Shown here: positions 2,834 to 53,744 of the stretch, piece after piece | How positions within the stretch are numbered: position 1 is the first letter of the stretch | Layout of the letters: the number at the start of each line of letters is the position of its first letter | From: Clostridia bacterium | GTDB taxonomy: Bacteria > Bacillota > Clostridia > Christensenellales > CAG-138 | Assembly: GCA_017514685.1 (NCBI GenBank) | Contig: JAFWJN010000026.1 | Coordinates: 1 to 64,000 of the forward strand | Direction: 5' to 3' | Length of the DNA: 64,000 nucleotides | Translations under genes and position numbers: made by a program | Notes under the pieces: model-generated | What the model saw: only the letters and a program-made list of their open reading frames with translations | What the model was told of the DNA's origin: nothing | The model's database searches: none

Positions 2834-2866
2834 TGTGACATCTTTGTGACATCTCTTTTGTAAGAT
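2834..2866 (+). promoter_or_regulatory. Candidate promoter of the CVPTP lipoprotein/ABC operon with tandem repeat
   Basis: TGTGACATC occurs twice (2834-2842 and 2845-2853), an 11-bp period. A TAAGAT -10-like hexamer follows at 2861-2866. The repeats occupy the place of the -35 box. Direct repeats one helical turn apart over a weak -35 are typical of binding sites for OmpR/PhoB-type response regulators, so activator-dependent transcription is an inference. No regulator gene lies next to the operon. Confidence 0.45.
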
Positions 2867-2965
2867 GGTAATGCAGGGAGGAAGCTGGAATGATTCCGAT
2901 GGAACGGCACACCGGTGACAACTTCCCAAAGAAGATTTGCAAAGATGCAACTGGAGGAGAATCTT

Positions 2966-4399
2966 ATGAAACGAATTTCTGTCCTGCTGGTACTTTTATT
3001 GGTCCTGTGCGCCTGCGTTCCGACACCGGAAACGGAATATGTCGTGAACAAGGCGGACAATACGGTGGAGGAAAAACTGAACGCGGCATCGACGGAGAAC
3101 CGTGATCAGAAAGAAATCTTCCCCGAACACTGGACCGAAGAAAAAACGCCGATCGACGACCATCTGTCGCTTTTTATCGACGCGGATTTAATCACAAAAG
3201 AAGACGGACTGTATCCGGTCTACCGCACGAAGACCGCGGAAATCACATCGGCGGAAGCCGGAAAATGGGCGGGAGAGATCCTTGGAACGCCGGAATCCCG
3301 TACCGGTACGGTGACGACTAAGGAACAGCTGCAAAAGGAAATGCAGCGGTACCTGGATCAGATTGCTGCGCTCCAGGCATGGATCGACGCCGGTCGTCCG
3401 GATGACGGCGTGGACCGGGACGAATACATGCCTTCCCAGGAGGAACAGGAAGAATTCATCAATTCGTACATGGAAATGATCGACAAAGCGCCTGAGAAGA
3501 ATGACAGCACGGAAGTCTCGGATTTTCAGAATATGCCGAAGGGCGGTTTTGTTTATACCATGACGGACGGAAGCTCCGGATATGTATACAGCGCAGAGGA
3601 CTGCGTCATCGTCGCTAAAAGCGATGCAGCCGATCCTTATCTCTATTATTCGTATTACTACGAAGAGGAAAAGGATGATTACGATCCCGATTATCCGTGG
3701 CCGGCGCTGTGGAAGGACGTAACGCTTTCGCGGGAGGATGCCGAAGCGATGCTGAAAAGGGAGATCGAGCGTCTCGGCTTTTCGGACTTTACCGTCACGC
3801 AGGCGACAACGGCCAATTTGCTGTGCAGTTCTCCGACCAAAAAGAGCGATGCGCAGGGATGGGCTTTCAAACTGAAACGCAATCCGGCAGGTTATCCGAA
3901 CGCCGGCGTTCCGTATGAGCCGTCTCAGGCACTGCAGTACGGTTCCGGTGACGATTTCATGGCAAACCCGCATGTGCGGGACGAGGAGGTAGAGATCCTG
4001 ATCGACGAAAGCGGACTCCGGTTCTTCGTTTACAGTGGCAAGCGCGAAGTAATCGGACTGGAGAATCCGAATGTGGAGCTGCTTCCGTTTGAAACGGTCA
4101 AAGAGCGCGTGAAAAATGCGTTCGCATCCTGTTACCCGCGTGATGGATTCAGGGCATACCGGGACGGAGAACAGAGCAATGTGACACTTGAAGTATATGA
4201 AATGCTTCTGACACCGTTCACGATCCGGGTAAAAAATTCGGAAGAACTGTATGAAATGCCGTGCTGGATCGTCTTTTTCGATGAATACGTGAATGACCGG
4301 CGTATGGCCGGACGGCGTGACGATCCGGATATGATGCACGAATGCATGGTGATCAACGCAGTGGACGGTTCGATCGTGCATACCGAATGGAATTGGTAA
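2966..4399 (+). CDS. CVPTP-family lipoprotein, paralogue A
   Basis: ATG 2966 follows GGAGGAGA. The 477-residue product starts MKRISVLLVLLLVLCACVPTPE, with the lipobox LCAC placing the lipid cysteine directly before VPTP. Three landmarks recur in its paralogues: an acidic helix DAEAMLKREIERLGFSDF near residue 255, a hinge NPNVELLPFE near 370, and a C-terminal VINAVDGSIV near 463. The helix plus strand plus DG-turn pattern resembles PepSY/YycI-like folds, but that is inference. With paralogues C and F it forms a close subgroup sharing an AW(I/V)xAG(R/K)P...DRDE segment. I believe such proteins are annotated as DUF6034, recalled and not checked. Function unknown. Confidence 0.8.
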   Translation: MKRISVLLVLLLVLCACVPTPETEYVVNKADNTVEEKLNAASTENRDQKEIFPEHWTEEKTPIDDHLSLFIDADLITKEDGLYPVYRTKTAEITSAEAGKWAGEILGTPESRTGTVTTKEQLQKEMQRYLDQIAALQAWIDAGRPDDGVDRDEYMPSQEEQEEFINSYMEMIDKAPEKNDSTEVSDFQNMPKGGFVYTMTDGSSGYVYSAEDCVIVAKSDAADPYLYYSYYYEEEKDDYDPDYPWPALWKDVTLSREDAEAMLKREIERLGFSDFTVTQATTANLLCSSPTKKSDAQGWAFKLKRNPAGYPNAGVPYEPSQALQYGSGDDFMANPHVRDEEVEILIDESGLRFFVYSGKREVIGLENPNVELLPFETVKERVKNAFASCYPRDGFRAYRDGEQSNVTLEVYEMLLTPFTIRVKNSEELYEMPCWIVFFDEYVNDRRMAGRRDDPDMMHECMVINAVDGSIVHTEWNW

Positions 4400-4405
4400 A
4401 AAGGT

Positions 4406-5899
4406 ATGAAGAGACAGTTTTTAATCATAGCGTGCGCGCTTCTGCTCGCCTGTTCGGCCTGTGTCCCGACGCCGGAAGAAGACGCCGTCAGGGAGAAAAA
4501 TTCCGAAAAGATGATCGAAATGGCAAAGGGAAGCGGACAGATGCCGGAGCTGACGGAGAATGGCAAAGCTGAAGAAACAGGAACAGCTGCAGAAACGGCG
4601 CCCGTTCCCGTAAAGGATCAGATGCCGGAGCGCCTCAGCTGGGATTTCTATACGGACACGAAGAACATCCATGTCACTGCGGATGTGCCGATCCGGATCA
4701 TGACCGAGGGAAGCTTTCCGCTGCTCCGGGTGATGCAGAAAACCGAAAACCCGGAGGAGAATGTGAAAATCGCCCGGTCGCTGCTCGGGACGGAAACAGT
4801 TTACAAAAGCGTTTATCAGTTGACCCGGCAGGATCTGGAAAAAGAGATCAGCGACCTGATGGAAAACCTCAGCGATCCGATGCATAACAAAAATCTTCTG
4901 GAGGATTTTACCGTCGAGGAACTGGAAAACGAACTGATCCCGAGATGGCAGGAGCATCTGGAAGAGCTTCAGGAGCAGTACCGCACGTTTCAGGACGGGG
5001 AGATTCAGCCCAATCCCGTATGGGACGGGCAGCCTGAGGGACAGACGGTACTGGTGGCGGGAGCCTACGATAAGGATGACGCCCGAAAATATGATCATAT
5101 CTACTTCACCGGCTGGGAGGATCCGCCCAACTGGAGCATAGACATGAACAGGAAAGGGGAGTGGGGCTCCGCCTGGGATTACGGCGTTATGGAACTGATC
5201 GATCCGAAGGAATACGGTACGCCCCATGCCGGAACCGCCATGACGCCGAAGGAAGCGGCGCAGAAGGTGCAGGCAGTACTGGATCCGTTTGTTCAGACGG
5301 AGATCGTTGATATCCTATGGGGCAACAACGCAAGCGACACCTATGGCTCCGACGGAACCAGACTGCGCTGGGGATACATCGTCCGCCTGACTCCGGTCTA
5401 TTACGAAACGGCGGCAGGGATCGGATTCGGGCAGTTATTCATGGGCGACCGTGATCCGGTCACGAACGTGAACCGTTTCTGGAATCAGGAGTACATCATG
5501 GGGGCAGTCAATGAAAGCGGCATTCTGACCTGTGAATGGAGAGATCCTCTTCAGGTGACGGAAGTGATTACCGAACATGCGTCCCTTCTGCCTTTTGAGG
5601 AGATCGAGCGGATCGCCAAACGGCAGATGAACCGGATCCTGTCCTACGGAGCGGAGGAAAACAGTACGCTGGAGGTGACAGACGTCCGGCTCGGACTGCT
5701 CTACCTGATGGAACAGTACAGCACCGATTCGGGACTGATGGTTCCCTGCTGGATCTTCCGAAAGACCCAGAATGTCAGCGAAGAGCAAATGAAACTCTGG
5801 AATCGGGAGGTTTCATCCTTCGATTACGACTGGCTGAATCCGCTTGTGATCATCAATGCGGTGGACGGTTCGGTTATCGATCCGTGGGCAGGCCACTAG
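4406..5899 (+). CDS. CVPTP-family lipoprotein, paralogue B
   Basis: The gene starts 6 bp after paralogue A, with a weak AAAAAGG in front. The 497-residue product begins MKRQFLIIACALLLACSACVPTPEE, a clear lipoprotein signal. It lacks the VVNK motif seen after CVPTP in A, C and F, having REKNSEK instead. It keeps the hinge (ASLLPFEEI) and the C-terminal IINAVDGSVI. Overall it is one of the divergent members (B, D and E). The conserved C-terminus with a variable middle suggests duplication followed by specialisation. Function unknown. Confidence 0.78.
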   Translation: MKRQFLIIACALLLACSACVPTPEEDAVREKNSEKMIEMAKGSGQMPELTENGKAEETGTAAETAPVPVKDQMPERLSWDFYTDTKNIHVTADVPIRIMTEGSFPLLRVMQKTENPEENVKIARSLLGTETVYKSVYQLTRQDLEKEISDLMENLSDPMHNKNLLEDFTVEELENELIPRWQEHLEELQEQYRTFQDGEIQPNPVWDGQPEGQTVLVAGAYDKDDARKYDHIYFTGWEDPPNWSIDMNRKGEWGSAWDYGVMELIDPKEYGTPHAGTAMTPKEAAQKVQAVLDPFVQTEIVDILWGNNASDTYGSDGTRLRWGYIVRLTPVYYETAAGIGFGQLFMGDRDPVTNVNRFWNQEYIMGAVNESGILTCEWRDPLQVTEVITEHASLLPFEEIERIAKRQMNRILSYGAEENSTLEVTDVRLGLLYLMEQYSTDSGLMVPCWIFRKTQNVSEEQMKLWNREVSSFDYDWLNPLVIINAVDGSVIDPWAGH

Positions 5900-5909
5900 G
5901 AGAAAGAAT

Positions 5910-7370
5910 ATGAAACGAATTGCAGGATTGATGGTTCTTGTACTGCTCTTATGCGCCTGCGTACCGACGCCGGAGCAGGAGTTTGTGGTAAACAAAAGTG
6001 AGAACGCGGTCGAACAGAAACTGTCTGCTTCTCCAAAGCCGGAACAGAAGGCGGCAATGCTGTTTCCGGACCACTGGAAGGAAGATCCGTATCAGCCGTA
6101 CGACCGGTTCACGATCGAGATCGACGCGGAGATCGTTCAGAAGGCGGACGGTATTTATCCGGTTTACCGCACGCGCGGAAGGGATTTCACCGATGCGGAC
6201 GCGGGCGACTTTGCAGAAAAGGTGCTTGATAAACCTGTTTCCGTCCGTGAGAGCATGATGACCAAAGCCGACTGGACGCGGGAGTTTCAAAGATGGCTGG
6301 AGGAAGTGGAAGCGCACCGCGCCTGGATCGCAGCCGGAAAACCGGAAGATGGCATTGACCGTGACGAAAGCGAGATCAGCCAGAAGGAAATCGACGAGGA
6401 ATCGGAATGGTACCGTGAGCAGATCCGGAACGCTCCGGATGATCTGCCGGAAACACCGGTCAGCGACTACCGGCTCCTTGGTCTCGGGGAAAGCAAGGTA
6501 TTTACGCTGGAGAACGGGCGCACCGCGTATGTAAGCGCGGATTACTGGTCGATACGGATCTGCCTTGATTGCGCTTCGCAGGGTTATCTGTATACGGAAA
6601 GCCGGATTGAACAGGATCAGAAATGGGGCGAACCGGGAGCGGAAGTATGGAGAGAACCGTCCATGACCGAAGAAGAAGCGGCTGCGATGCTGCAGTCCGC
6701 CCTGGAAAAACTCGGAATGACGGACTTTACGGTGCGGCTTTCCCAGAAAGGAAATCTGTATCAGGAACTGGGCGGAAAACCAGTCTCGTCGGCAGCGGGC
6801 TGGGCGTTTTCGCTTGTACGCGACTATGGGGGCTATCCGACTTCGCGCGTGCCGTTCGAGCCGCACCAGAATCTGGCTTACGGGGAGGATGACGGGTTTG
6901 CTGCAAACAAACCGATTGAGAAGGAAACGCTTGAGATCCTGATCGGGCCGGAAGGTCTGCAGATGGTCGAGTACAACTGTCCGAAGACCGTTGCGGGAGT
7001 GGAAAACCCGGATGTCGAGCTGCTGCCCTGGGAGAAAGTGAAAACGCGTATCCAGAGCGCTTTCAAGTTGACGGCGCCGGTAAAATGGGCAGAAGAACAG
7101 GACACGGTCCATACCTATCGCGTTTACCGGCTGCTGCTGACAACGTGGACGGTCCGCGCAAAGGACAGTCAGGATTACTATGAGATGCCGTGCTGGGTCG
7201 TGTTTTTCGATCGCGACATCCGCAGCCGCGGTCACGAAGCGGAATATGAACAATGGTATGGGCCCGATTATTGGGAACGCAACCGGAACAACACGGATCT
7301 GATGCAGGAGACTCTGATCATAAACGCAGTGGATGGAAGCATCGTGTTCAATGATTACGGGGCAAGGTAA
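5910..7370 (+). CDS. CVPTP-family lipoprotein, paralogue C
   Basis: ATG 5910 lies 10 bp after the stop of B and follows TAGGAGAAAGAAT. The product of 486 residues begins MKRIAGLMVLVLLLCACVPTPE, followed by FVVNKSENAVEQKL. It is close to paralogues A and F: shared GIYPVYRTR, AWIAAGKPEDGIDRDE, an acidic helix EEEAAAMLQSALEKLGMTDF, the hinge NPDVELLPWE and the ending LIINAVDGSIV. Each copy keeps an uninterrupted frame, which argues against decay. Confidence 0.78.
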   Translation: MKRIAGLMVLVLLLCACVPTPEQEFVVNKSENAVEQKLSASPKPEQKAAMLFPDHWKEDPYQPYDRFTIEIDAEIVQKADGIYPVYRTRGRDFTDADAGDFAEKVLDKPVSVRESMMTKADWTREFQRWLEEVEAHRAWIAAGKPEDGIDRDESEISQKEIDEESEWYREQIRNAPDDLPETPVSDYRLLGLGESKVFTLENGRTAYVSADYWSIRICLDCASQGYLYTESRIEQDQKWGEPGAEVWREPSMTEEEAAAMLQSALEKLGMTDFTVRLSQKGNLYQELGGKPVSSAAGWAFSLVRDYGGYPTSRVPFEPHQNLAYGEDDGFAANKPIEKETLEILIGPEGLQMVEYNCPKTVAGVENPDVELLPWEKVKTRIQSAFKLTAPVKWAEEQDTVHTYRVYRLLLTTWTVRAKDSQDYYEMPCWVVFFDRDIRSRGHEAEYEQWYGPDYWERNRNNTDLMQETLIINAVDGSIVFNDYGAR

Positions 7371-7418
7371 AAATACAGCCGGCGGATTCCATGCCGCATG
7401 GAAGAAAGGCAATTATTG

Positions 7419-8984
7419 ATGAAACACGCAAAACCGATTTTATTCATTCTGATGATTCTGCTCCTGGCTGGCTGTGTTCCGACACCGGATGTTGAGATCA
7501 TCCCGAACAAGGGGGACCAGAAGGAATGGCAGGCTGAAGCCAGACCCTATCTTCCGGAAGACGATCCTCCGGCGGAAACTCCGGTCGGGGACGGACCGAC
7601 TTTGGAATACGAGCAGCAGGAAAGCCCGCTTTATGATCTGATAGACAGTAAACCTCTCTGGAATATGGATAACCGGGAGTACGGTTTTCTGATCACGGCG
7701 CGGGACTGTCCGGTCTATTTGCCGGATGTTGCCGCCGTGCCCGTGATCGAAGCGCAGAAGCGTTCGTTTACCCAGGAGGACATCGACGCCGTGGCCGAAG
7801 CGATGTTCCCGCCGGACACCGTATGGTATCCGGAGGTGCTCTGGACCAAGGAAGAACTTGCAGTCATCATGCAGGAGACTATGGAGGAAGCAGCGAAAGG
7901 AGATCCCGACGCTGCCGAGAACGGACACAACTCGAAATATTTTGAAGACAAACTGGCCATGTATAAACAGCGGTACGATGAGGCGCCTTTTGAGGCGGAC
8001 ATCGTGCCCATCACGCTGGAGATCAACCCATGCCAGGACGATATCCGTCTGAACGATTCCACAAAGAAATATCTCGGCGTGAAGGCGGAGACTCTAGGAG
8101 AAGGCGTACGCTGGAAACTGAATGCCCGGACGGAGGCGGACGATCCTTTGATGACTTATCTGGAAGCATCCCGCTGCGGGAATATGTGGATCGACCGGGA
8201 ACAGCCCCTGGACGCGCCTTACGGGGTAAAGATGACGCGGGAGGAAGCGATCCGAAAGTCCACGGACTTTGTAAGATCGATCGCCGGGAATGAATACAGT
8301 GTCTGCTACTGCGTTCCGATGGCGGCGCATGCCGAACAGCAGGAGAACGGGGAGAGCTATGCTCTGCCGGAACGCTGGTCGCAGTGGGGACTGGTGTTCA
8401 TGCGCACCTTCAACGGCTGCCCTTCCGCATATGCGGCGGAAGAGGTGGGAGGCGATATGGATTCCACGGTCTCCAGACCCATCCATTACGAGCGGATCAT
8501 CGTGCACATTGACGACCAGGGCGTCAGTTATTTCCGCTGGAATACCCCGATGACCGTTACCGGCGTCGTGAGTTCCAATGCCGATCTCATCCCGTTTGGA
8601 GACGCGGAGAAAACAGCCATGATGGGCATTCAGGCACGGTTTAAGTACGATGTTGAAGACAATCAGGCGCACGGAAAAGAGACCGTCATCTATCTTGCCA
8701 GGGTCACTTTCGGACTTTGGCGGATCTCCAGGAAGAACGGAGGATGGTACTATGTGCCGGTATACCATTTCTTCACCAATGCCTATCAGGGAACCGGAAG
8801 CTGGTCCACGGCGGAAGGATTCTGGGGGGACGGGACCCCGAGGGAACGGTTTCTGAAAGATTACGAACTGGGAAATTACGCGTTCATGGACAATTCGTGC
8901 ATGACGTTCGGCGGCGACTACTGGGGCGCGGTGACGATCAACGCCCTTGACGGAACGATCATCAACAAGGATAAAGGATATTGA
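7419..8984 (+). CDS. CVPTP-family lipoprotein, paralogue D
   Basis: I chose ATG 7419, which has GAAAGG upstream; an in-frame ATG at 7398 has no ribosome-binding site. The product is 521 residues, the longest of the set, starting MKHAKPILFILMILLLAGC with VPTPDVEIIPNK after the lipid cysteine. It is strongly diverged but keeps a helix TREEAIRKSTDFVRSI, the hinge SSNADLIPFG, and an altered ending TINALDGTII. A 48-bp gap separates it from C, the largest inside the operon. Confidence 0.75.
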   Translation: MKHAKPILFILMILLLAGCVPTPDVEIIPNKGDQKEWQAEARPYLPEDDPPAETPVGDGPTLEYEQQESPLYDLIDSKPLWNMDNREYGFLITARDCPVYLPDVAAVPVIEAQKRSFTQEDIDAVAEAMFPPDTVWYPEVLWTKEELAVIMQETMEEAAKGDPDAAENGHNSKYFEDKLAMYKQRYDEAPFEADIVPITLEINPCQDDIRLNDSTKKYLGVKAETLGEGVRWKLNARTEADDPLMTYLEASRCGNMWIDREQPLDAPYGVKMTREEAIRKSTDFVRSIAGNEYSVCYCVPMAAHAEQQENGESYALPERWSQWGLVFMRTFNGCPSAYAAEEVGGDMDSTVSRPIHYERIIVHIDDQGVSYFRWNTPMTVTGVVSSNADLIPFGDAEKTAMMGIQARFKYDVEDNQAHGKETVIYLARVTFGLWRISRKNGGWYYVPVYHFFTNAYQGTGSWSTAEGFWGDGTPRERFLKDYELGNYAFMDNSCMTFGGDYWGAVTINALDGTIINKDKGY

Positions 8985-8989
8985 TAGAA

Positions 8990-10450
8990 ATGAGACGGAT
9001 TCCGATTCTGCTGATTGCTCTTCTCGTTCTGTGCGCCTGCGTGCCGACGCCGGAGGAAGAGGTTGTGATCCATAAGAACGACGGCACGCTGGAACAGCAG
9101 CTTGGAGCGACCCCTGTTCCGGATTATCAGACAGAGGCCGAAGAGGAAATCAAAACGGAAACAGAGGAGATACCCTCTTCTTCCGGCAGCAGCCCGGATG
9201 AACCGGAACAGAATACTCTGCGGCTTGCTCTGAATGCGCCGGAAACCGTACGGGAACGTTTTGACGGGCAGGCGGTCGGCGCGCATCTGTACATCGAAAT
9301 GGATGCCGAGGTTGAGATCCCCGATGTGGACAAAGTTCCTGTGCTTCGCGGCCGGGTAGGCTATGAGCCGGAGAAGACGGCGGAACGGATCGCAAAGCTC
9401 CTGCTCGGAGACGGTCCCTATCTCCGTCCCGGTCACAGCGAACGGGCTTATATCGAACCGACGCTGACCTATTATCAGAAATGGCTGCTAGCGCTGGATC
9501 AGAAACCTTACGGGCCATATGCGGATTACGACGCCATCCGTGAAAACCTTCAGTTCAATCTGAACATGGGCGCGGAGTCATACCGGAACGCGACCGGAGA
9601 AAACGACCGGCCAGACAAGCCATGGACCGGTTCGTTTGAGGAAGCCAAAGAGGCATTCAGCATCAGCAACGGGGAACGAAGTTTCAGCATGCACAACGTC
9701 GGAATCAGCGTTTTTGCCTATGACGCGGGAAATCATCCCTATATCGGCGGCGGCTGGCTCGATAATCCCCGGGGTCCCCGGAACGAAGAGGAACGCCGGT
9801 GGCTGCAGAATGCAGCGGATTTTGCGAACAGCCTGGGATTCGCCCGCGTAATGCCGCAGCAGATCAACGATGCGGACGAAATGACCCGGATGCGTTACTG
9901 CAGCGAGACCGGATTTGACAGCGGATACAAGGACTTTACGCTGCTTCCTGTTTACGAAGGCATCCCGGTTTATCCGTATGTGACCATGTACGGTTCCGAT
10001 ACCGGACGGCAGGCGGCAGGGGTTCCTTTTACCAGAAATCTTGAGCAGGAAGAGATTTTCGGCACTCTGTACAACGGTGAAGTGGTTCAGATGCAATGGA
10101 ACAGTCCCTTTACTGTGACAGGCGTGGAGAATGAGAACGTGCCACTTCTTCCGTTTGAACGAATCATGGAGATCTTCCGCAGGCAGGTGTTTATGAGCGT
10201 CTATCTTGACAAGGGATATGACCTCACTTACTGCGTTACCGGGATCCGGTTTTCCTATATGCGGGTGCAGGTAAAGGATTCCGACGAATACTATCTGCTG
10301 CCCGTATGGGACTTCATGGGTTATACGGCGCATGACTGGGAGCAGACGCCAGGAGAACAGGCGATCAGCCAGGGGTTTGACAGTCATATGTCCATTCTGA
10401 CCGTGAATGCTGTGGACGGAAGCATTATTGACAGGTATCTGGGCAATTAA
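8990..10450 (+). CDS. CVPTP-family lipoprotein, paralogue E
   Basis: The gene starts 5 bp after D. A TTG at 8981 is an alternative start, but it would overlap D and sits too close to the AAAGGA. The 486-residue product begins MRRIPILLIALLVLCACVPTPE with VVIHKNDG after it. The middle is unlike A, C and F, but the hinge NENVPLLPFE and the ending TVNAVDGSII are present. It immediately precedes the ABC permease gene. Confidence 0.76.
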   Translation: MRRIPILLIALLVLCACVPTPEEEVVIHKNDGTLEQQLGATPVPDYQTEAEEEIKTETEEIPSSSGSSPDEPEQNTLRLALNAPETVRERFDGQAVGAHLYIEMDAEVEIPDVDKVPVLRGRVGYEPEKTAERIAKLLLGDGPYLRPGHSERAYIEPTLTYYQKWLLALDQKPYGPYADYDAIRENLQFNLNMGAESYRNATGENDRPDKPWTGSFEEAKEAFSISNGERSFSMHNVGISVFAYDAGNHPYIGGGWLDNPRGPRNEEERRWLQNAADFANSLGFARVMPQQINDADEMTRMRYCSETGFDSGYKDFTLLPVYEGIPVYPYVTMYGSDTGRQAAGVPFTRNLEQEEIFGTLYNGEVVQMQWNSPFTVTGVENENVPLLPFERIMEIFRRQVFMSVYLDKGYDLTYCVTGIRFSYMRVQVKDSDEYYLLPVWDFMGYTAHDWEQTPGEQAISQGFDSHMSILTVNAVDGSIIDRYLGN

Positions 10451-10466
10451 GTTTTTGGAGTAATCA

Positions 10467-12227
10467 ATGAGACAGATCTGGGGAGATATCAGAAGAGCGG
10501 TATTCGGGCGATCGTTTCTGATCGCCTTCGGAGGCATGGTGCTGTGCCTCTGCATCGGGGCGTTTTCGGAAGCGCTCAGCGTGTTCCGGATGGAGGAGAT
10601 CAGCGTGCTGTACGGCTACCATCGCGAACTTCTTCTGGAAACGCTGGGAAGCGATATCATACTGTTCGCCGTGCCGATCCTGGCTGCAATTCCCTACACG
10701 ACCGCGTTCACCGATGATGTGAAGACCGGCTATCTGAAACCGTATCTGACCCGAACCAGCGTGACGCGCTATATTCTCGGCAAAGGGATCGGCGCCGCGT
10801 TTTCCGGAGGCTTGTCGCTTGTGTTCGGAATGCTGACGGCGCTCGGGATCTTTTTTCTCGTCTTTTCTCCGTTTGAGGTCTACGGCGAATACGCAGTGGA
10901 GTCGAAAATACCGGAGATCATTCTCCGGCTGGTTCTGTTCTTCTTTTCCGGCGCAGTCTGGGCAAGCGTCGGTCTGCTATGCTCTTCTCTGACGCAGAAC
11001 GTCTACCTGGCGTATGCCGCGCCGTTCATCTTTTATTATGTACTGATCATTCTGCAGGAACGCTACTTCCGCACCGCCTTCATGCTGAATCCGAAAAACT
11101 ATCTGACGATGGAGGGGGCATGGCCGCTGGAAGGCAGAAGCGCAGCGCTGACGCTGTTAATGCTGGTCGTGATCCTGCAGCTTGTTTTCTACATGACAGC
11201 GCAGACGGAGCTCCGGGATGACAAACGGCAGAAACATCATTATGCAGCACAGGATCTTTCCCAGAGAATCCTTGCAAAACGCATCGGACGCGCAAAGCCG
11301 AAAAAAGAGTACAGGAAGATTCCGCTCCTGTACTCTGTCACGCAGATCGGCGCGGTCGTACGCTACAACTTCCGGATGTGGAAGGGAAATGTCCGCATCG
11401 CGCTGACGTTTGCGCTCGCCTTCATCCTGTGTTTTCTGCTTTCAGACAAGGCAGCTTCCTTCGCCTATGATATGGGGACGTCCATGCAGGCGTTTGAGCC
11501 GTTCGTCTGGACATTCGGAGATGCGAATTCGGTGCTGCTGATTTCGCTGCTGCTGGTTCTGCTGTTCGCGGATATTCCGTTTTTAGGAGCGGGCGTGCCG
11601 TATTATCTGGTGCGTATGAAGCGCTCCACCTGGGCGTGGGGACAGCTCATCTATCTGATCCTGGCTACGCTCATCTATATGCTTTTCATCTTTATTGCAA
11701 CCTCTCTGATCTGTATGCAGAACAGTTTTATCGGCAACATGTGGTCGGAGACCGCGGCAATTCTGGGGTATTCCGGCGCAGGGAAGGCAGTAGCGCTTCC
11801 GACGCTTGTCAAGACCCTCGAAATGTCGCGCCCGTACCAGTGCGCCGCGACCATTTTCCTCCTGATGCTGCTGTACACGCTCGTGCTCGCGCTGCTGATG
11901 CTTCTTATGAAGCTTCTCCGCGGTAAGAGCGCGGGCGTGGTTGCGGCGTTCGGGTTCTCGCTCTACGGGCTGCTGCTGAACCCGGAACTGATCAAGCAGA
12001 TGTTCAACCTCCCGGACGAGCTGATGTATAAGGCAAACGTCGCCGTGGGCTGGCTCTCGCCCTTGAATCAGGCGACGTATCACATGCACAATTTCGGCTA
12101 CGATCTGCTGCCACGGCTCTGGCATACCTATCTGATTTTCGGAGGATTGATTCTTCTTCTGATGGTCGGGACCCTGTTTGCTATCCGCAGATACAACTTC
12201 ATGTTCCTCGGCACGGAACAGTCATAA
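10467..12227 (+). CDS. ABC-2-type transporter permease
   Basis: The 586-residue protein has an amphipathic N-terminus and about a dozen hydrophobic segments in two blocks (roughly residues 15-240 and 300-580), separated by a basic cytoplasmic linker (KRIGRAKPKKEYRK). The length and the duplicated arrangement suggest two ABC-2 permease halves in one chain. It lies 16 bp after lipoprotein E and 11 bp before lipoprotein F. The only ATPase gene nearby, at 13744, is its likely partner. The substrate is unknown. The context suggests export or envelope remodelling rather than uptake, because no classical substrate-binding protein is present. Confidence 0.8.
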   Translation: MRQIWGDIRRAVFGRSFLIAFGGMVLCLCIGAFSEALSVFRMEEISVLYGYHRELLLETLGSDIILFAVPILAAIPYTTAFTDDVKTGYLKPYLTRTSVTRYILGKGIGAAFSGGLSLVFGMLTALGIFFLVFSPFEVYGEYAVESKIPEIILRLVLFFFSGAVWASVGLLCSSLTQNVYLAYAAPFIFYYVLIILQERYFRTAFMLNPKNYLTMEGAWPLEGRSAALTLLMLVVILQLVFYMTAQTELRDDKRQKHHYAAQDLSQRILAKRIGRAKPKKEYRKIPLLYSVTQIGAVVRYNFRMWKGNVRIALTFALAFILCFLLSDKAASFAYDMGTSMQAFEPFVWTFGDANSVLLISLLLVLLFADIPFLGAGVPYYLVRMKRSTWAWGQLIYLILATLIYMLFIFIATSLICMQNSFIGNMWSETAAILGYSGAGKAVALPTLVKTLEMSRPYQCAATIFLLMLLYTLVLALLMLLMKLLRGKSAGVVAAFGFSLYGLLLNPELIKQMFNLPDELMYKANVAVGWLSPLNQATYHMHNFGYDLLPRLWHTYLIFGGLILLLMVGTLFAIRRYNFMFLGTEQS

Positions 12228-12238
12228 AGGAGAAAAAT

Positions 12239-13732
12239 ATGAAACGAATGTTTATTGTTTGTCTAGCCTGCATTATGCTTCTTGCCTGCGTCCCTACTCC
12301 GGAAGAGGAGTTTGTCGTGAACAAGGGCGACAGTACAGCGGAGGATAAGATCAACGCGAAACCAAAGCCTGCAGAAGATGCGGTCGGATTGCTTCCCGAT
12401 ACGCATACAGCGGAAAATTCCGTACAGGCATCGGAAAATGAATCGGAAGCACCGCTGCAGGCGCAGCGATTCCCGGACCGTTGGGATGAGGAGGCAACGA
12501 AGATCGATGAGCACGTTACGATCTCGGTACATGCTAATGTCATTCAGAAGGAGGACGGATTGTATCCTGTATACCGCACCAAGGACGCACCGCTAACAGA
12601 TGCGGAAGTGCAGGCGCTTGCTGCAAAGCTGCTGGATAAGCCTAAGGAAGCCTATACTTCTGAGATGACAAAGGAGGACTACAAAAAGCAGCTTCAGGAT
12701 TATCTCGATATGGTTGCGGAACAGCAGGCGTGGGTCGATGCAGGCAGACCGGATTGGGGCGACCGCGACGAAACGGTATTTACGCCGGAACAGATCGAGG
12801 CGGAAACGAACCGGTACATGGAGCTGATCAAAAATGCACCCGACACGCTGGAAACCAGGCCGGTTTCCGATTACAGCGGACTGCATTTCAATACGGCGAC
12901 AGTCTATACGCTCGAATCGGGTGAAAAGGCGTATGTCGCATTCTACAAATGGGGTTTTCAGGTGTACAAGGGATGCGCGTATTACGGGCATATCTATCAG
13001 GAGGCTATGTACCGGTTGGACAAGGACGAGGGTGAAGCAAACGCAAAGTTCTGGCACGACGTTACGATGGAACGGGAAGCCGCCGAAGCGATCCTGAACA
13101 CGGAGCTTGAGCGCCTTTCGCTGACGGAGTACCGTGTGAGCCGCGCGGAAAAAGCATGCTTGTTGGAGCGGTCGGTCAACGATCGGATGAAGTATAAGTC
13201 TTCCGGCTGGATGTTTACGCTGATTCGCAATCCCGCAGGGTATCCCGTGTCCGACCTGCCGTGGGAACCGTCACAGTATCTGAAGTACGGCAACGATGAC
13301 AGCTTTGTTGCAAACGAGCCGGTACTGGAAGAGCATATCGTTATCTTTATCGATGAGAACGGTCTGCAGTCATTCAGTTTCTACAACCGCCGTGAGGTTA
13401 CCGGCCTGCCGAACGCAAACGTCGAACTGCTGCCGTTTGAAGAGGTGCAGCGGATCGCCAAGAACACGCTCGCAATGTGCATGCCGCACGATATTATCGG
13501 CGAACGAAGCGTGAACGCCGAGGTCTACAAAGCTTTGCTCACAACCTATACGCTGCGTGTCAAGGATTCCGATGAATATTACGAAATGCCATGCTGGGCG
13601 CTGTTTTTCGACGGACTTTGGGGGGACAGGGAATTCCTCCTTCGCGCGCGAGAATCGTATTTTGAACAGCACGACGTACTGCTGCTGAACGCAGTCGACG
13701 GTTCGATCATTCATCCGGATTACGGATACTGA
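12239..13732 (+). CDS. CVPTP-family lipoprotein, paralogue F
   Basis: ATG 12239 follows AAAGGAG. The product of 497 residues begins MKRMFIVCLACIMLLACVPTPE, then EFVVNKGDSTAEDKIN. It is nearest to A and C: GLYPVYRTK, AWVDAGRPDWGDRDE, the helix EAAEAILNTELERLSLTEY, the hinge NANVELLPFEEV and the ending LLNAVDGSII. Its position between the permease and ATPase genes ties the lipoprotein family to the transporter rather than being chance adjacency. Confidence 0.78.
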   Translation: MKRMFIVCLACIMLLACVPTPEEEFVVNKGDSTAEDKINAKPKPAEDAVGLLPDTHTAENSVQASENESEAPLQAQRFPDRWDEEATKIDEHVTISVHANVIQKEDGLYPVYRTKDAPLTDAEVQALAAKLLDKPKEAYTSEMTKEDYKKQLQDYLDMVAEQQAWVDAGRPDWGDRDETVFTPEQIEAETNRYMELIKNAPDTLETRPVSDYSGLHFNTATVYTLESGEKAYVAFYKWGFQVYKGCAYYGHIYQEAMYRLDKDEGEANAKFWHDVTMEREAAEAILNTELERLSLTEYRVSRAEKACLLERSVNDRMKYKSSGWMFTLIRNPAGYPVSDLPWEPSQYLKYGNDDSFVANEPVLEEHIVIFIDENGLQSFSFYNRREVTGLPNANVELLPFEEVQRIAKNTLAMCMPHDIIGERSVNAEVYKALLTTYTLRVKDSDEYYEMPCWALFFDGLWGDREFLLRARESYFEQHDVLLLNAVDGSIIHPDYGY

Positions 13733-13743
13733 GAGGTAGAAGC

Positions 13744-14382
13744 ATGGCAAACGCAATCGAAGTATATGACCTCGTAAAGGTGTTCGGGCAGGACATGGTG
13801 CTGAAGGGCATTAACCGCAATTTCGAAGCGGGGAAAATCCATGGCGTCGTCGGCAACAACGGCTCCGGAAAGACCGTCATGTTCAAATGTATCTGCGGCT
13901 TTCTGCAGCCGACCGGCGGAAAGGTGCTGGTAAACGGAAAACAGATCGGCAGGGATGTAGACTTTCCGGAAGACATCGGGCTGATCATTGAAACACCGGG
14001 CTTTCTGCCACAGCTGTCCGGACTCAAAAATCTTGAGATCCTTGCATCTCTGAAACGAAAAATCAATCTCCGGCAGATCGCCGATACGATCCGCCGTGTC
14101 GGACTGGATCCCATGAGCAGCAAACCGGTCGGTAAGTATTCGCTCGGTATGCGGCAGCGCCTCGGCATTGCGCAGGCGATCATGGAGGAACCGTCGCTGA
14201 TGATCCTCGACGAGCCGATGAACGGACTCGACAAGAACGGCGTTGCCGAGATGCGGGAACTCTTCAAATCCCTTGCCACCGACGGACGGACCATTCTTCT
14301 TGCCAGCCACAATATCGCGGATATCGAAGCGCTATGCGATACGGTCTGCGAGATGGACGCCGGCGTCATGACGATGCTATAA
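13744..14382 (+). CDS. ABC transporter ATP-binding protein
   Basis: This 212-residue ATPase has a Walker A (GNNGSGKT, about residues 35-42), the signature YSLGMRQRL, a Walker B (LMILDEPMNGLD) and a switch histidine in LLASHN. It lies 11 bp after lipoprotein F. The size is at the short end for the family because the C-terminus stops soon after the H-loop. It should energise the permease at 10467. Confidence 0.9.
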   Translation: MANAIEVYDLVKVFGQDMVLKGINRNFEAGKIHGVVGNNGSGKTVMFKCICGFLQPTGGKVLVNGKQIGRDVDFPEDIGLIIETPGFLPQLSGLKNLEILASLKRKINLRQIADTIRRVGLDPMSSKPVGKYSLGMRQRLGIAQAIMEEPSLMILDEPMNGLDKNGVAEMRELFKSLATDGRTILLASHNIADIEALCDTVCEMDAGVMTML

Positions 14383-14404
14383 AACAGGAACAGAGGAAAA
14401 AACA

Positions 14405-16390
14405 ATGAAACTGAGAATAATCGCATGGATTCTGGTATTGATTCTGGCGCTGACACCGATGCTGTCGGTTGCGGAAGGGGACGATACGGAACCTCCTGCC
14501 TCAGCGGATCCTTCCACACCGCCGGAAACGGATCCGCCGGTAACTCCGGACGCAGACCCGACCACCCCGCAGGGAACGGATCCGCCGGCAACGCCCGGCT
14601 CGGATCCTACCACGCCGCCGGAAACGAATCCGCCCGCGTCCCCGACGGAGCAGCCTTCCGCTTCGCCGACGGCAGAGGCGTCTCCGTCGGCAAGTGCAGA
14701 CCCGACTGCCTCGCCCGCAGCGCCGACATCAACGCCGGGACCGGTGACGGAAACGGCTGATCCGCTGAAGATCGATACTTACTGGAAGTATCCCGGAATG
14801 GAAAAGAGCTATGCACAGGGATACATGCCGGTGCAGTCAGGCAAAACGGTCCGATTTCTGATGCCGCTGCTCGGCAAAACGCTCGGAAGTACGATCCGGG
14901 TCGTTCCGGAGTTTCCATCCGACGGTCCTTTCGCGGCATCCAATCTGCAATTTGACGTATCGGAAAAGACCTATGATGTGACACAGGGACAGAACAGCAA
15001 TCAGAAGGAAGCTTATCTCGTCCAGTTCAGCGCGCCGCTGAAAGACACGTATTACAACGGTACCTATACCGTCATGCTGCATGTGAGTTACAAGAATCCG
15101 CAGGGGGAGCCCGCCGAGCAGACTTTCCCGATGCAGATCCAGATCACCGGGGGAAAGACCGTGTCGGCCGGCGGCGGAGGCGGAGGGATGACGGTGGTAA
15201 GAAAACCGGTCATTCTGATCGACAATTATGCGATCGATCCGCTGGAGGTGTCCGGCGGTGAAAAAGTTTCCGTCAAAATCTCGCTGACCAATGTCGGGAA
15301 CTACGACGCAAGGAATATCCGGGTCTCTCTGGTTCCCGAATCGGATACGCTCAAACTGGAAGGAGACCTGAACGCGAGATTCTTCGATGCGCTGCTGGTC
15401 AGGGGCAAACTGGAAGCGGCTTTTGATCTCAGTGTCCAAAAAGGAGCGTCCGAAGGCCCCGCGTTGTTTACTGTTCAGTTGGCGTATGAAGACCGGTTCG
15501 GCGGTTCGTATACGGATGAAGGAAAATATCAGGTCTATATTACCCAGCCGAAGATCGAGATCCTGTCCTGCGAATACAGTGAAGTGGTCAACGGCGGAGA
15601 CGGATTTACCGTCATGCTGACGGTTCAGAATACCGGAACGCGCGACGCGAAGAATGTTTCGGTACAGTATACGGGGTCGGACGATTCGATCCGGAACAAG
15701 GATGCAAAGGACCATCAGGAGATCGGAACGCTGAAGGTGGGAGAGTCCAGGGAGCTGGTTTTCAATCTTCGCGCCATGCCAAACGCAATGGAGGGAAAGC
15801 ACTCGTTCCGGTTCAGCTGCTTCTACCAGGAAGCGGACAGCGGCGGTTCCTATGAAAGCAGCGGGAATTATCCGCTGTCGGTCGTGCAGGAAGCCTCGCT
15901 CGGATATGACCAGATCAAACTTCCCGAGTCGGTCACAAGCGGCGAAAGCTTCACTTTGCCGGTTTGCGTATACAACACGGGCTTTTCGGAAATCTTCAAC
16001 ATCCGGTGTACGCTCGACTGTGACGGGTTGATCTGCTCGTCGGCGTTTTTAGGAAACCTTGCTCCGCAGGAGAGTGCGGACAAGACAATGACTGTCTTCG
16101 TCACGACATTGTCCGGCACGCAGAAATACGGAGATACTTACGGCAGTGTTCAGATCTTCTACGAAGATGTCAACGGGGAACGTCATACGGAATTCCAGAG
16201 CGTAAAAATGACGGTTGCGGAACCGGTTAAGGTTACCGATGAAGAGAAGGCAAAGAAGGAAAAGGAACAGAAGGAGCAGCAGACATTGTCACAGTGGTGG
16301 ATCTCCCTGCTTGTTGCAATCGCCGTGATTATCATATTGATCGCGGTCATCGTGATTGCAAGATTCGTGCGCATGATGCGGTTAAAATGA
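14405..16390 (+). CDS. CARDB-like surface protein with Pro/Thr stalk and C-terminal anchor
   Basis: The 661-residue protein has a signal peptide (residues 1-23, ending SVAEG), a low-complexity linker rich in Pro, Thr, Ser and Ala (about 25-115), and beta-rich repeats with VSGGEKVSVKISLTNVGNYDARN and later VVNGGDGFTVMLTVQNTGTR, typical of CARDB/COG1361 domains. One transmembrane helix follows near the end, after a charged EEKAKKEKEQKEQQ segment, with a short basic tail. It is the last gene of the operon, 22 bp after the ATPase gene. Similar proteins accompany ABC exporters in Clostridia as extracytoplasmic adaptors; that role is inferred. Confidence 0.75.
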   Translation: MKLRIIAWILVLILALTPMLSVAEGDDTEPPASADPSTPPETDPPVTPDADPTTPQGTDPPATPGSDPTTPPETNPPASPTEQPSASPTAEASPSASADPTASPAAPTSTPGPVTETADPLKIDTYWKYPGMEKSYAQGYMPVQSGKTVRFLMPLLGKTLGSTIRVVPEFPSDGPFAASNLQFDVSEKTYDVTQGQNSNQKEAYLVQFSAPLKDTYYNGTYTVMLHVSYKNPQGEPAEQTFPMQIQITGGKTVSAGGGGGGMTVVRKPVILIDNYAIDPLEVSGGEKVSVKISLTNVGNYDARNIRVSLVPESDTLKLEGDLNARFFDALLVRGKLEAAFDLSVQKGASEGPALFTVQLAYEDRFGGSYTDEGKYQVYITQPKIEILSCEYSEVVNGGDGFTVMLTVQNTGTRDAKNVSVQYTGSDDSIRNKDAKDHQEIGTLKVGESRELVFNLRAMPNAMEGKHSFRFSCFYQEADSGGSYESSGNYPLSVVQEASLGYDQIKLPESVTSGESFTLPVCVYNTGFSEIFNIRCTLDCDGLICSSAFLGNLAPQESADKTMTVFVTTLSGTQKYGDTYGSVQIFYEDVNGERHTEFQSVKMTVAEPVKVTDEEKAKKEKEQKEQQTLSQWWISLLVAIAVIIILIAVIVIARFVRMMRLK

Positions 16391-16440: not shown

Positions 16441-16481
16441 TATAAAATAGAAAAGAGGCAGACGAATCAATCGACTGCCTC
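16441..16481 (-). terminator. Terminator repeat R1
   Basis: GAGGCAG-CGA and TCG-CTGCCTC pair around ATCAA. Read on the minus strand the hairpin is followed by TTTTCTATTTTATATA, so it terminates the hipA direction. The stem and about 40 bp beyond it are similar to R2 (19665-19710) and R3 (20749-20777). Confidence 0.7.
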
Positions 16482-16587: not shown

Positions 16588-17340
16588 TTAGGTGGTTGAC
16601 AAGTTTCTCTCACTGCCGGCATCCAGTATGGCTGCTTTTAACGCCCCTATTTCTTTCACGCCCTGATGTATCAGCGTCTCAGCCGCGGAATTCAGCGTCG
16701 GGCGGAAGCGTTTAATCATCTCATCCAGCCGGTTTAGCGCCATCCGTTCGCCGAGTCCAGCTTCCTTAGCTGCCATGCGGAAGGAATCGCGCGTCACGTC
16801 TTCGATCTGTGTTGCATTGCCGATTGCAAACGACATCTCATGCGTCATGCCTTTGTAGCCGATCGTATGGATCACGTCATATGCCGGGGCAAGTCGTACC
16901 GTCTTCAGATCCTCGCTGTACAGCAGCGAATAGTTCTTCAGATGGCCGTCGGTGTTCCCAATCAAATAGTTGAACACGATCCTGTCCCATAGTTTCAGTT
17001 GATCTTCGATTGGCTGCGAGGAATGCGTGCGCAGCAGCGCGAACATCTTTGCAAGGTGCCGGTCACCGCTTTCATACTTCCGCGACGCCGCAATGCCCAG
17101 CGCCTGCGCAAAGTCCTCCTGATGCAGCCGCAGCGGCATCGGTAGTTCATTCGCAAATGCAGGCGATTCTGAAAAACGGCGATCGAACCGTTCGGACACA
17201 AGCAGGATGTCCTCATCCTTTCCGGAGCCCATATCGATGATCGTCGTTTCCGGGACGTCGATCCCGCATTGCTTTGCCGTCAGCAGGCAAAGCAGTTCAT
17301 TCGGAATGATCCGCTCCAGTCGGACATGACTTTGCTTCAC
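16588..17340 (-). pseudogene. hipA: hipA, C-terminal part (gene split by insertion sequence)
   Basis: This holds the C-terminal 250 codons of a HipA-type Ser/Thr kinase toxin. It begins VKQSHVRLERIIPNELLCLL, which directly continues the N-terminal piece at 18794. Kinase landmarks are VFNYLIGNTDGHLKNYSLL (catalytic loop, N and D) and LAPAYDVIHT (the D of the metal-binding motif). It has no ribosome-binding site of its own and is not expected to be made alone. Removing bases 17341-18793 restores one uninterrupted 426-codon frame. Confidence 0.88.
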
Positions 17341-17468
17341 CAGCGTCGCAGGACAGGATGCTCCGCCTTCAACGAAGTAAGTCGGGGAGGAATGTCCGGT
17401 TGAGCGACGCCGTTCTCCTTTCGCTTTCTAATTTTGTTTTTCTGCTTTCCTTTTTTGCTGTTTTATGG

Positions 17469-17474
17469 TATAAT
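17469..17474 (+). promoter_or_regulatory. tnpB promoter -10
   Basis: TATAAT lies 26 bp before the tnpB start. The T-rich sequence upstream gives no clear -35 hexamer. Confidence 0.4.
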
Positions 17475-17500
17475 TATTCCGTTAAGAAAGAGAGCTCTGT

Positions 17501-18628
17501 ATGGAACAGACCATAACGGCAAAACTACAGATCGTTGTCAGTCCTTCGGATAAGCAGATCCTTCGTGAGACCATGAAGGCTTATACCAATGCCTGCAATT
17601 ATGTGTCTGAGTACATATACGAAACGCATGATCTGCATCGGTACGGTGTACAGAATCAGACTTACAGGCAGTTGAGAGAGATCTACGGTCTCAAAGCCCA
17701 GATGGCGGTATCCGTTGTGAGAACCGTTATCGGGAAGTACCGGACGATCCTGAAGAATCAGAAGGAATGGATCAGGCCGGTATTCCGGCATCCGCAGCTG
17801 GACCTTGTATGGGGAAGAGATTATTCGCTGAATCAGAAGAGTGATGTCTTCTCCGTGAATACGCTCGGCGGACGGATCAAAACTCCTTTTCATAAGAAGG
17901 GCTTTGAGCGGTACTTCTCCGAAGGGTACCGGTACGGGACCGCGAAGCTTGTCTGCAGACATGGGCTGTTCTTTCTGTATGTACCCGTTACCTGTGAGGT
18001 CTCCGAATTGAAAAGAACGGAGATCACGAACGTTGTCGGTATCGACCGCGGGATCCGGTTTCTCGCTGTAACATATGACAGCAGCGGGAGAACCGTATTC
18101 TATAACGGCAATACCGTAAAGCAGAAACGCGCGCACTATAAGTCGCTTCGGAAAGAGCTTCAGAGGATCGGGACCCCGTCCTCGAGAAGGCGGCTGAAGG
18201 CCATCGGTCAGCGGGAATACCGCTGGATGCAGGATGTGAATCACTGCATCTCCAAGACACTCGCTGAATCAAACCCCGAAGGCACTCTGTTCGTACTCGA
18301 GGATCTGGGCGGTATCCGTTCCGCTGCAGAAAAAGTCAAGGTCAAAGACCGGTATCTCTTCGTATCCTGGCCTTACTATGATCTGGAACAGAAGCTGAAC
18401 TACAAAGCGTTAAGGAACCATCAGCTTGTAGAGAAAGTCAATGCTGCCTATACAAGCCAGACCTGTCCGAAATGCGGTCATACGGAACGGGCGAACCGGA
18501 ACAAGAGGATCCATCTCTTCTGCTGCAAAAGCTGCGGATACCGGTCGAACGATGACCGGATCGGCGCCATGAATCTGCATCGTCTGGGAATCGAGCTGAC
18601 AGTACCGGATGCAGTTGCTGCTGAGTAA
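17501..18628 (+). CDS. tnpB: TnpB RNA-guided endonuclease
   Basis: The 375-residue protein has the RuvC triad D182 (VVGIDRGIRF), E267 (FVLEDLGGI) and D352 (NDDRIGAMN). A four-cysteine zinc ribbon (CPKCGH and CCKSCGY) precedes the last aspartate. All catalytic positions are present, so the nuclease looks intact. TnpB uses an RNA from the element's right end to cut DNA next to a short motif matching the element's insertion target, which favours element retention. Here the predicted motif is TTCAC. The start is ATG 17501 with AAAGAGAG upstream. Confidence 0.9.
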   Translation: MEQTITAKLQIVVSPSDKQILRETMKAYTNACNYVSEYIYETHDLHRYGVQNQTYRQLREIYGLKAQMAVSVVRTVIGKYRTILKNQKEWIRPVFRHPQLDLVWGRDYSLNQKSDVFSVNTLGGRIKTPFHKKGFERYFSEGYRYGTAKLVCRHGLFFLYVPVTCEVSELKRTEITNVVGIDRGIRFLAVTYDSSGRTVFYNGNTVKQKRAHYKSLRKELQRIGTPSSRRRLKAIGQREYRWMQDVNHCISKTLAESNPEGTLFVLEDLGGIRSAAEKVKVKDRYLFVSWPYYDLEQKLNYKALRNHQLVEKVNAAYTSQTCPKCGHTERANRNKRIHLFCCKSCGYRSNDDRIGAMNLHRLGIELTVPDAVAAE

Positions 18629-18793
18629 TACTTAGCAACACGGGTATGGGTCAACGTGCCCACGATGTAACGCCACGTCTGATAAGGATATCAGACGATA
18701 AAATGTGGAAGGAATCAACCATGATCCGTTATACCACAGGGCAGTTACAAGCTCCGGCCTCTAAGGCTTTAGCCGTAGGTCGGGGTAGTTGAC
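18629..18793 (+). ncRNA. Predicted omega (reRNA) guide scaffold at the IS right end
   Basis: The segment between the tnpB stop and the right end contains a strong hairpin (CGTCTGAT and ATATCAGACG, about 18676-18697) and ends GCTCCGGCCTCTAAGGC, TTTAGCCGTAGGTCGGGGTAGTTGAC in the style of IS605-group right ends. In this family the RNA starts inside or after tnpB and runs past the right end, so its guide would be the hipA sequence from 18794 onward (GATATGGGTGCTCGGC). The 5' boundary is unknown. Confidence 0.65.
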
Positions 18794-19321
18794 GATATGG
18801 GTGCTCGGCGCCGTTCCGTGGGGCAGGTACCACTCCCCCGTCTTCGGATCCCGGTATAGACCGACTTTCCCGGTCGCACCGGCAAGCGAAAGTCTGGATT
18901 CGATCACGACCGCTGCGGATTCGGTCGCTCCTTCACGTGCCAATTCGCGGACCTGCTCGCGCGTCAGCTTATCGTATGACGCCTGCGGTGTTTCTCCTTT
19001 TCGATACACGCGCAGCGCACCGATGCATTCGCGGCCGAGCTGATACAGGATCTGCACATAATCATTTTCATCCAGATGAAGATTTGACGCGACCGCGCGA
19101 CGCGTAAAACCTTCCAGCAATAATCCGTCAAAAAAGCATTTGGTTTGTTCTGCAGAGAACGGCTCCGACTGAAGTGGCAGACTGAGAGAGATCGGAACCG
19201 CTTCAGTCGCATGCAGATAATCGGCTGCGTATGTGAACCGTGCGTCCGCACTGCTCTCTCCCGAAATCGAACCGACAGCAACCGGTTTCCCCTTGATATC
19301 GATGCTGACCGTGAATTCCAT
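18794..19321 (-). pseudogene. hipA: hipA, N-terminal part (gene split by insertion sequence)
   Basis: This gives the first 176 codons of HipA. It starts MEFTVSIDIKGKPVAVGSIS and contains the N-lobe, including GATGKVGLYRDPKTGEWYLP, the Gly-rich ATP-contacting segment, and GTAPSTHI. Translation then runs into the insertion sequence for about ten codons and stops near 18761. The catalytic C-lobe is therefore missing and the toxin should be inactive unless the element excises. The start is 3 bp after the hipB stop, so the two are one operon. Confidence 0.88.
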
Positions 19322-19324
19322 GTA

Positions 19325-19534: not shown

Positions 19535-19546
19535 ATGCCCTCCTTC

Positions 19547-19640
19547 GCCGAACGGCTCATTTGACAATGTTTCGGCGTAATTTAGCCGTACGGCTCATTT
19601 TGATTAATTTCATTATAATTTAGCCGTACGGCGAAGTCAA
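19547..19640 (-). promoter_or_regulatory. hipBA promoter with three operator palindromes
   Basis: On the minus strand TTGACT (19635-19640) and TATAAT (19612-19617) are 17 bp apart. The palindrome GCCGTACGGC lies inside the spacer (19623-19632) and again at 19585-19594. A variant GCCGAACGGC is at 19547-19556, overlapping the hipB leader. The two downstream sites share flanking CTCATTT. Site spacing is 38 bp each time. Repression by HipB is the natural inference. Confidence 0.8.
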
Positions 19641-44161: not shown

Positions 44162-44181
44162 GAGAGGAGAAGAAAAAGAGA

Positions 44182-51551: not shown

Positions 51552-51562
51552 GAAAGGAATCC

Positions 51563-53733: not shown

Positions 53734-53744
53734 AAAAAGTGACA

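Follow-up and report, generated by a model that had tools for sequence, protein, structure and literature searches.

Nine genes in a row on the + strand occupy positions 2966–16390 of the window, by which we mean the whole analysed stretch of 64,000 nucleotides from contig JAFWJN010000026.1 of a Clostridia bacterium. Six of them encode lipoproteins, named A (2966–4399), B (4406–5899), C (5910–7370), D (7419–8984), E (8990–10450) and F (12239–13732). All six belong to the Pfam family DUF6034 (PF19499), with E-values, in this order, of 9.1e-27, 7.6e-40, 1.5e-26, 1.8e-43, 1.5e-37 and 1.5e-30 and scores of 93.8–149.6 bits against a gathering cut-off of 27. The other three genes encode a membrane permease (10467–12227), an ATP-binding cassette (ABC) ATPase of 212 residues (13744–14382; PF00005, E 4.5e-29) and a secreted CARDB protein with a C-terminal membrane helix (14405–16390; PF07705, E 5.1e-13). 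A preliminary description of the window had placed the nine open reading frames (ORFs) at the same starts, several of which have longer mechanical ORF starts upstream. The intergenic gaps are 6, 10, 48, 5, 16, 11, 11 and 22 bp; the spacing of mostly 5–22 bp given in that description is therefore correct, the 48 bp before lipoprotein D being the sole exception. The nine-gene block is a real, conserved operon.

The preliminary description had regarded the six lipoproteins as copies of one protein with shared motifs, and the Pfam result, a single family for all six, agrees with this. The lipobox cysteine followed by VPTP, one hinge and one NA(V/L)DG(S/T) are present in all six; the hinge as found is (L/I)(L/I)P(F/W)(E/G), with LLPWE in C and LIPFG in D. 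Pairwise identity is 41–45% within A, C and F and 19–26% for the other pairs. A recent duplication of all six is rejected, as only A, C and F are close. The best match of lipoprotein A in other species has 50% identity, and for C the best matches within the operon and outside are equal (42%). Searching the source genome (82.6% complete) with protein F gave nine matched segments, all inside contig positions 2966–13729. None of the six matches a solute-binding Pfam family. Each consists of a lipid-anchor motif, a less conserved middle and, judged by the family profile, a C-terminal YycI-homologous domain. The alignment used (A3) holds the six window proteins and 102 of 106 non-redundant relatives, drawn from 158 of 183 ORFs with a recognised lipobox. 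A repeat shared by the middle and the C-terminal part was unsupported (probability 2.6). The residue after the lipobox cysteine (CV or CQ) shows some bias by type of partner and was left unused as a marker, being confounded by lineage; the first gene after a kinase gave 1 CV and 22 CQ of 36, and exporter runs 54 CV and 83 CQ of 181.

The permease is a natural fusion of two halves (residues about 1–270 and 290–586) that are separate neighbouring genes in many relatives. It has no Pfam match, and would be of the ABC-2 type. Its single match among solved structures, caveolin (E 0.09), was judged to be chance, leaving no credible relative. The best NCBIfam models of the ATPase are exporter or protection types (galliderm_ABC, GldA, DrrA, PmtC). 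The nearest, TIGR03740 (lantibiotic protection), scores 179.5 bits with a cut-off of 309.75, so that the ATPase is near this model and not a member. Among solved structures, ABCA lipid exporters and NosF come closest to the ATPase. By eye, the CARDB protein has a signal peptide, a proline-rich spacer, the C-terminal membrane helix and a basic tail; matches to circumsporozoite protein were discarded because they are confined to the spacer.

The C-terminal domain and YycI

When 51 DUF6034 members were scanned singly against Pfam, YycI (PF09648) was matched by five (best E 5.1e-6), DUF4901 (YcdB/YcdC) by three and the YpeB PepSY model by two. The scan also lists 20 other families, mostly with single members and with E down to 8.4e-4; the 22 families other than YycI, several of them matched by one member, show its background. 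Proteins A–F have no Pfam match to YycI at E up to 1, and the DUF6034 profile was therefore compared with fetched YycI and YpeB proteins. The comparison with the YycI profile gave an HH probability of 96.7 over columns 251–460 (151 aligned columns, 15% identity), compared to 88.6 for YpeB and 0.2 for a permease decoy. The probability for YycI was 96.6 when the window proteins were left out of the profile and 92.5 for the six window proteins alone. The E-values of hhalign are uncalibrated for a single pair, and weight was placed on the controls. Against YycI, 30 column shuffles gave at most 0.3, the reversed profile gave 0.1 and decoy profiles of the CARDB protein, kinase, regulator and ATPase gave at most 1.3. 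The CARDB decoy reached 48.4 with DUF6034, confined to 15 signal-peptide residues. The DUF6034–YycI alignment spans a conserved P-x-W and the terminal INA-x-x-G, which is the C-terminal motif of the preliminary description. The N-terminal part of DUF6034 (about 80–254) matches neither the YycI nor the YpeB profile. In a profile search of solved structures, DUF6034 found the uncharacterised 5coz (E 3.5e-7), a piece with no Pfam match, and YpeB (E 0.11). On these profile comparisons, the C-terminal approximately 210 residues of DUF6034 are homologous to YycI, the regulator of WalK; homology of the domain to YpeB is indicated more weakly.

Passages of PMC7355866 describe YycI and YycH as membrane-anchored regulators of common fold on the outer face of the membrane, which act on WalK negatively in Bacillus subtilis and as activators in Staphylococcus aureus and need their transmembrane domains to do so. 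In walRK loci the regulator genes come after walR and walK (PMC4801191 and PMC7355866). DUF6034 shares with this system the YycI-homologous C-terminal domain and, in 27 of 80 runs of DUF6034 genes from relatives, the gene order response regulator, kinase, DUF6034. It differs from YycI in having a lipid anchor (lipobox cysteine in 6/6) and not an N-terminal transmembrane helix, and in its extra N-terminal part, its many paralogues and its link to an exporter. The window operon also differs from the WalRK locus, with neither kinase nor response regulator among its nine genes, whereas relatives often have the pair.

DUF6034 is catalogued in Pfam with no assigned function. The YycI-type domain, the partner genes and the operator described below are new with respect to the Pfam entry. 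No paper in the open-access library searched mentions DUF6034, the subscription literature lying mostly outside the search. With the same limit, and judged by title and opening of the abstract, no paper there deals with a CARDB/ABC transporter/lipoprotein operon or with tandem paralogous lipoproteins alongside YpeB, a histidine kinase and an ABC transporter; none brings YycI, YycH and WalK together with PepSY, or a paralogous lipoprotein array together with an ABC transporter and a two-component system in Clostridia.

Partner genes and copy number in relatives

Among the 103 genomes analysed from the window's family, DUF6034 matches (E up to 0.001) occur in 60, with 58 above the cut-off; many of these genomes have 13–21 matches each. 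The permease is present in 43 of the 103 (E up to 1e-5), and all 43 also have DUF6034; 17 of the 60 DUF6034 genomes have no permease match at this threshold. As the family genomes are related and partly incomplete, the co-occurrences are not independent events. Across the phylum, none of 348 genomes except the source genome is above the DUF6034 cut-off and three others match weakly, while permease matches (E up to 0.001) occur in 15 others. Eleven regions around ten of these 15 genomes were inspected; a DUF6034-like ORF adjoins the permease in three, with 49 bits in L163, 25 bits in L162 and only 10–11 bits in L166. The L162 and L163 proteins are lipoproteins of 381–386 residues with a weak match to the DUF6034 profile and no Pfam family.

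A search with the permease alignment gave 200 confirmed stretches, the best 80 of which represent 79 loci (up to 10 kb each side). These include Clostridium zeae, C. paridis, Christensenella intestinihominis and Bacillus niameyensis. DUF6034 is found in 72 of the 79; the other seven have about 2 kb of sequence or less upstream of the permease, and no DUF6034 downstream. Together with the 43 genomes, this agrees with the proposal of the preliminary description that the genes form one operon, and shows a conserved lipoprotein–transporter partnership. Many of the genomes are rumen or gut assemblies according to their titles.

The number of lipoprotein genes varies. In 44 same-strand blocks of the permease loci that are clear of contig ends, DUF6034 genes number one in 19 blocks, none in 10, two in 7, three in 4, four in 2 and five in 2. 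The largest set is 19 genes on one strand over about 33 kb with one permease (G063, contig C13), a count that joins loci L051 and L052, which share one gene. The view that six copies per transporter are unusual is thus right only in part, relatives having from one to about 19 near one permease. Six is therefore not a fixed number, and a ring of six lipoproteins per transporter is rejected as a rule; the preliminary description had suggested a ring or array.

The partners of DUF6034 were counted in 80 runs from 80 family loci. The loci were not a random sample, being picked from among the hits to DUF6034 and to the permease, and most of the second 40 lie at a distance from permeases; the response regulator and kinase labels are sequence matches to a few seeds. 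A permease is found in 27 runs, a response regulator–kinase pair in 31, both in 5 and the pair with no exporter in 26. The order regulator, kinase, DUF6034 is seen in 27 of the 31 runs with the pair and differs in L219, L232, L243 and L244. Some loci are neighbouring pieces of one contig (L049/L050, L051/L052, L060/L081), so that an exporter or kinase may be cut off; L081 was counted as having neither partner despite an ATPase and a CARDB gene, and L209 has a kinase with the regulator cut off. In locus L043, ten DUF6034 genes surround a two-component pair and a permease is absent; the genome (G030) has no permease match either. In 73 runs from the named permease loci, the permease occurs with a regulator–kinase pair in 11 and with a sigma/anti-sigma-like pair in 11; other operons in relatives begin with sigma and putative anti-sigma genes. 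In B. niameyensis (L154) a regulator gene comes first, followed by genes for the kinase, DUF6034, two permeases, the ATPase, a LolD-like ATPase, CARDB and an FtsX-like protein. The lipoprotein is thus not specific to the transporter. The preliminary description had named homologues found mostly apart from transporter genes as evidence against its proposal, and this applies in part: 17 of 60 genomes have no permease match, and the permease is in 27 of the 80 runs.

One or two small signal-peptide proteins (about 140–165 residues) are located near anti-sigma-like and DUF6034 genes in L091, L095, L098, L100 and L101. The two scanned from L101 have no Pfam match. It is possible that these proteins are cargo or signal.

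Operator and flanking sequence

Upstream of lipoprotein A is a tandem 11-bp direct repeat, CTCTGTGACAT-CTTTGTGACA (2831–2851, + strand), with 0 mismatches to the genus pattern. The operator, absent from the preliminary description, reads CTCTGTGACATCTTTGTGACA and consists of two 11-bp units; its tandem repeat, CTCTGTGACAACTCTGTGACA, is a putative response-regulator target. An 11-bp tandem spacing is typical of OmpR/PhoB-type regulators. TAAGAT (2861–2866, + strand) is a candidate −10 box by its spacing; several relatives have TATAAT at a fixed spacing after the operator.

With up to two mismatches, the operator pattern matches 51 times, each overlapping register being counted separately, and 16 of the 23 genomes of the genus have it; the same pattern read backwards gives no match. 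In the source genome the window's operator is the only match. Among the 51 matched positions, 24 distinct sites could be placed in 30 fetched loci, with start codons assigned by a simple rule; including the window's own, 14 lie before a DUF6034 gene and 2 before a permease, at a distance of 24–150 bp. In G061 (contig C49; L178, L246) the operator is kept upstream of a response regulator–kinase pair, and no DUF6034 was found in that genome. A second conserved block, GGACG(A/C)AT, replaces TATAAT after the repeat in 9 of the 24 sites (L174, L178, L181, L184, L189, L191, L193, L196, L201) and is perhaps a second promoter type.

A stem-loop 3′ of the last gene (16455–16481, + strand), with a weak T run, was noted by eye as a possible terminator and is likewise absent from the preliminary description; it is not among the sites of the terminator scan. 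Upstream of the operon are an AAA_14/DUF4143 ORF (385–1728) and a 275-residue ORF (1729–2556), the latter read by eye only. Beyond the operon, an interrupted hipBA-like pair lies at 16588–19567: the N-part (18761–19321) and C-part (16588–17340) of HipA, both on the − strand, are separated by an IS605-type TnpB/Cas12f1-like ORF (17501–18628, + strand). A PIN-domain protein lies within 19895–20568, and its short neighbour looks by eye like an AbrB-type antitoxin. A surface protein that combines seven SpaA stretches with a thioester domain (44104–47394) is followed at a distance by a MobA-type relaxase (52429–53733); the region 44104–64000 is perhaps a conjugative element.

An exporter with receptor lipoproteins as a tentative reading

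The reading we favour draws on descriptions of YycI/YycH, NisI/NisFEG and Ytr together with the anatomy of the operon: an exporter for cell-envelope defence or homeostasis with six receptor lipoproteins on the outer face. We hold this tentatively, as a little short of an even chance. Likewise just below evens, and the best account we can give of the family, is that the lipoproteins serve as lipid-anchored receptors, docking on an envelope-defence exporter in this operon and on kinases in other settings. An OmpR/PhoB-type response regulator would turn the operon on under envelope stress. Each lipoprotein would capture or sense a different ligand through its variable part, such as an antimicrobial peptide or a cell-wall intermediate. 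Docking would go through the YycI-type domain, and the membrane partner would be the permease/CARDB complex in this operon and a histidine kinase elsewhere. The ATPase would drive removal of the ligand from the membrane in the presumed direction of transport, and several paralogues would widen the range of ligands. The homology, the partnership and the operator were observed; ligand capture, docking and transport direction are what we infer. The proximity of the ATPase to the lantibiotic-protection model was counted in favour, as were the operator common to the DUF6034 operons of relatives, the DUF6034 membership of all six lipoproteins, the YycI homology, and the regulator–kinase and sigma/anti-sigma genes beside DUF6034 in relatives.

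Several observations weigh against this reading. In addition to the missing YycI matches of A–F, the six window proteins alone reach a probability of only 1.7 with YpeB, and the DUF6034 lipoproteins are without the transmembrane domains that YycI and YycH need to act on WalK. The ATPase falls short of the TIGR03740 cut-off. Neither a permease nor a regulator–kinase pair is found in 27 of the 80 runs, some of them cut by contig ends. Eight of the 24 operator sites lie before ORFs that are of other kinds or unresolved, among them the response regulator in G061. The sigma-70 scan has no + strand site at 2831–2866, and its total of 13 sites compares with 14.1 expected from shuffles. Pfam and NCBIfam scans reveal no response regulator or kinase among the nine genes, and in the source genome, itself incomplete, a DUF6034-linked kinase finds nothing closer than a match of 35% identity (residues 128–455).

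The operon also resembles known envelope systems. The B. subtilis YtrBCDEF likeness is one of gene make-up, namely two permeases (fused in the window) and an ATPase, to which some relatives, as in L154, add a LolD-like ATPase and an FtsX-like permease; the window operon differs in having no GntR repressor and no LolD/FtsX pair among its nine genes, and in the additional DUF6034 and CARDB proteins. According to passages of PMC8060467 and PMC12772383, the products of the Ytr operon are two permeases, a pair of ATPases and an FtsX-like protein; inhibitors of the lipid II cycle induce the operon, and its deletion gave no consistent resistance phenotype.

The lantibiotic system LanFEG with LanI (NisFEG/NisI) shares the lipoprotein and the ABC exporter and, in relatives, two-component control. 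The operon could serve lantibiotic-type self- or cross-immunity in the narrow sense, with lipoproteins that sequester peptides like LanI (NisI/SpaI) and a permease and ATPase that work like LanFEG. Nisin immunity combines the same ensemble of immunity lipoprotein, ABC exporter and two-component control, NisI and NisFEG acting together (PMC4828448), and TIGR03740 is the nearest ATPase model. However, the ATPase reaches only 179.5 of the 309.75 bits of that model, the sequence relation found for the lipoproteins is to YycI, and NisI/SpaI are unnamed among the 21 solved-structure matches; the CARDB protein and the paralogue array are additional to LanFEG/LanI. We regard this as improbable.

Of similarly low probability is a role in signalling only. 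DUF6034 proteins would then be kinase regulators like YycI/YycH, the exporter would merely fall under the same regulon, with the lipoproteins encoded beside it acting on kinases elsewhere. This would fit the YycI homology and the 26 runs with a two-component system and no exporter, such as the ten genes of L043. Against it stand the presence of DUF6034 in all 43 permease genomes and in 72 of the 79 permease loci, and the DUF6034-like ORFs beside the permease in three of the ten remote genomes (weak in L166), which suggest a direct partnership of DUF6034 with the permease.

It is quite unlikely that the operon is an export or maturation machine, in which a small protein or peptide would be secreted by the exporter, with the lipoproteins and the CARDB protein as chaperones on the outer face. 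The small signal-peptide proteins near DUF6034 in the five loci named above would suit such a machine, but no + strand ORF of at least 90 residues lies in the gaps of the operon or in the stretch from 2556 to lipoprotein A, and runs of two-component and DUF6034 genes occur with no exporter. Gram-positive importers commonly pair lipid-anchored binding proteins with an ABC transporter, and the layout resembles this; uptake of a nutrient, with the lipoproteins as substrate-binding proteins, is nevertheless very improbable given no solute-binding Pfam match in the six, no Pfam match for the permease, and an ATPase whose best models and solved relatives are of the exporter or protection type.

The reading as an envelope-defence exporter with receptor lipoproteins can be extended to the family, in a form that we consider doubtful. 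DUF6034 proteins would be plug-in receptors: the lipid-anchored sensors would be interchangeable and, sharing one YycI-type docking domain, could work with histidine kinases as well as with an exporter. The arrays of gut and rumen Clostridia, with up to about 19 genes near one exporter, would provide a repertoire against many envelope-active compounds within one operator-defined regulon.

Two known kinds of component, a YycI-type regulator and a putative defence-type ABC exporter, are combined here. A heavily amplified and unexplained lipoprotein family gains a testable identity, as relatives of YycI, which regulates a central cell-wall kinase, that also travel with an exporter, and its operator, partners and regulon are now named for direct testing. 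If the reading is true, signalling and transport share a single outer-face domain, and the operon suggests a way in which bacteria could multiply the surface receptors around a single transporter.

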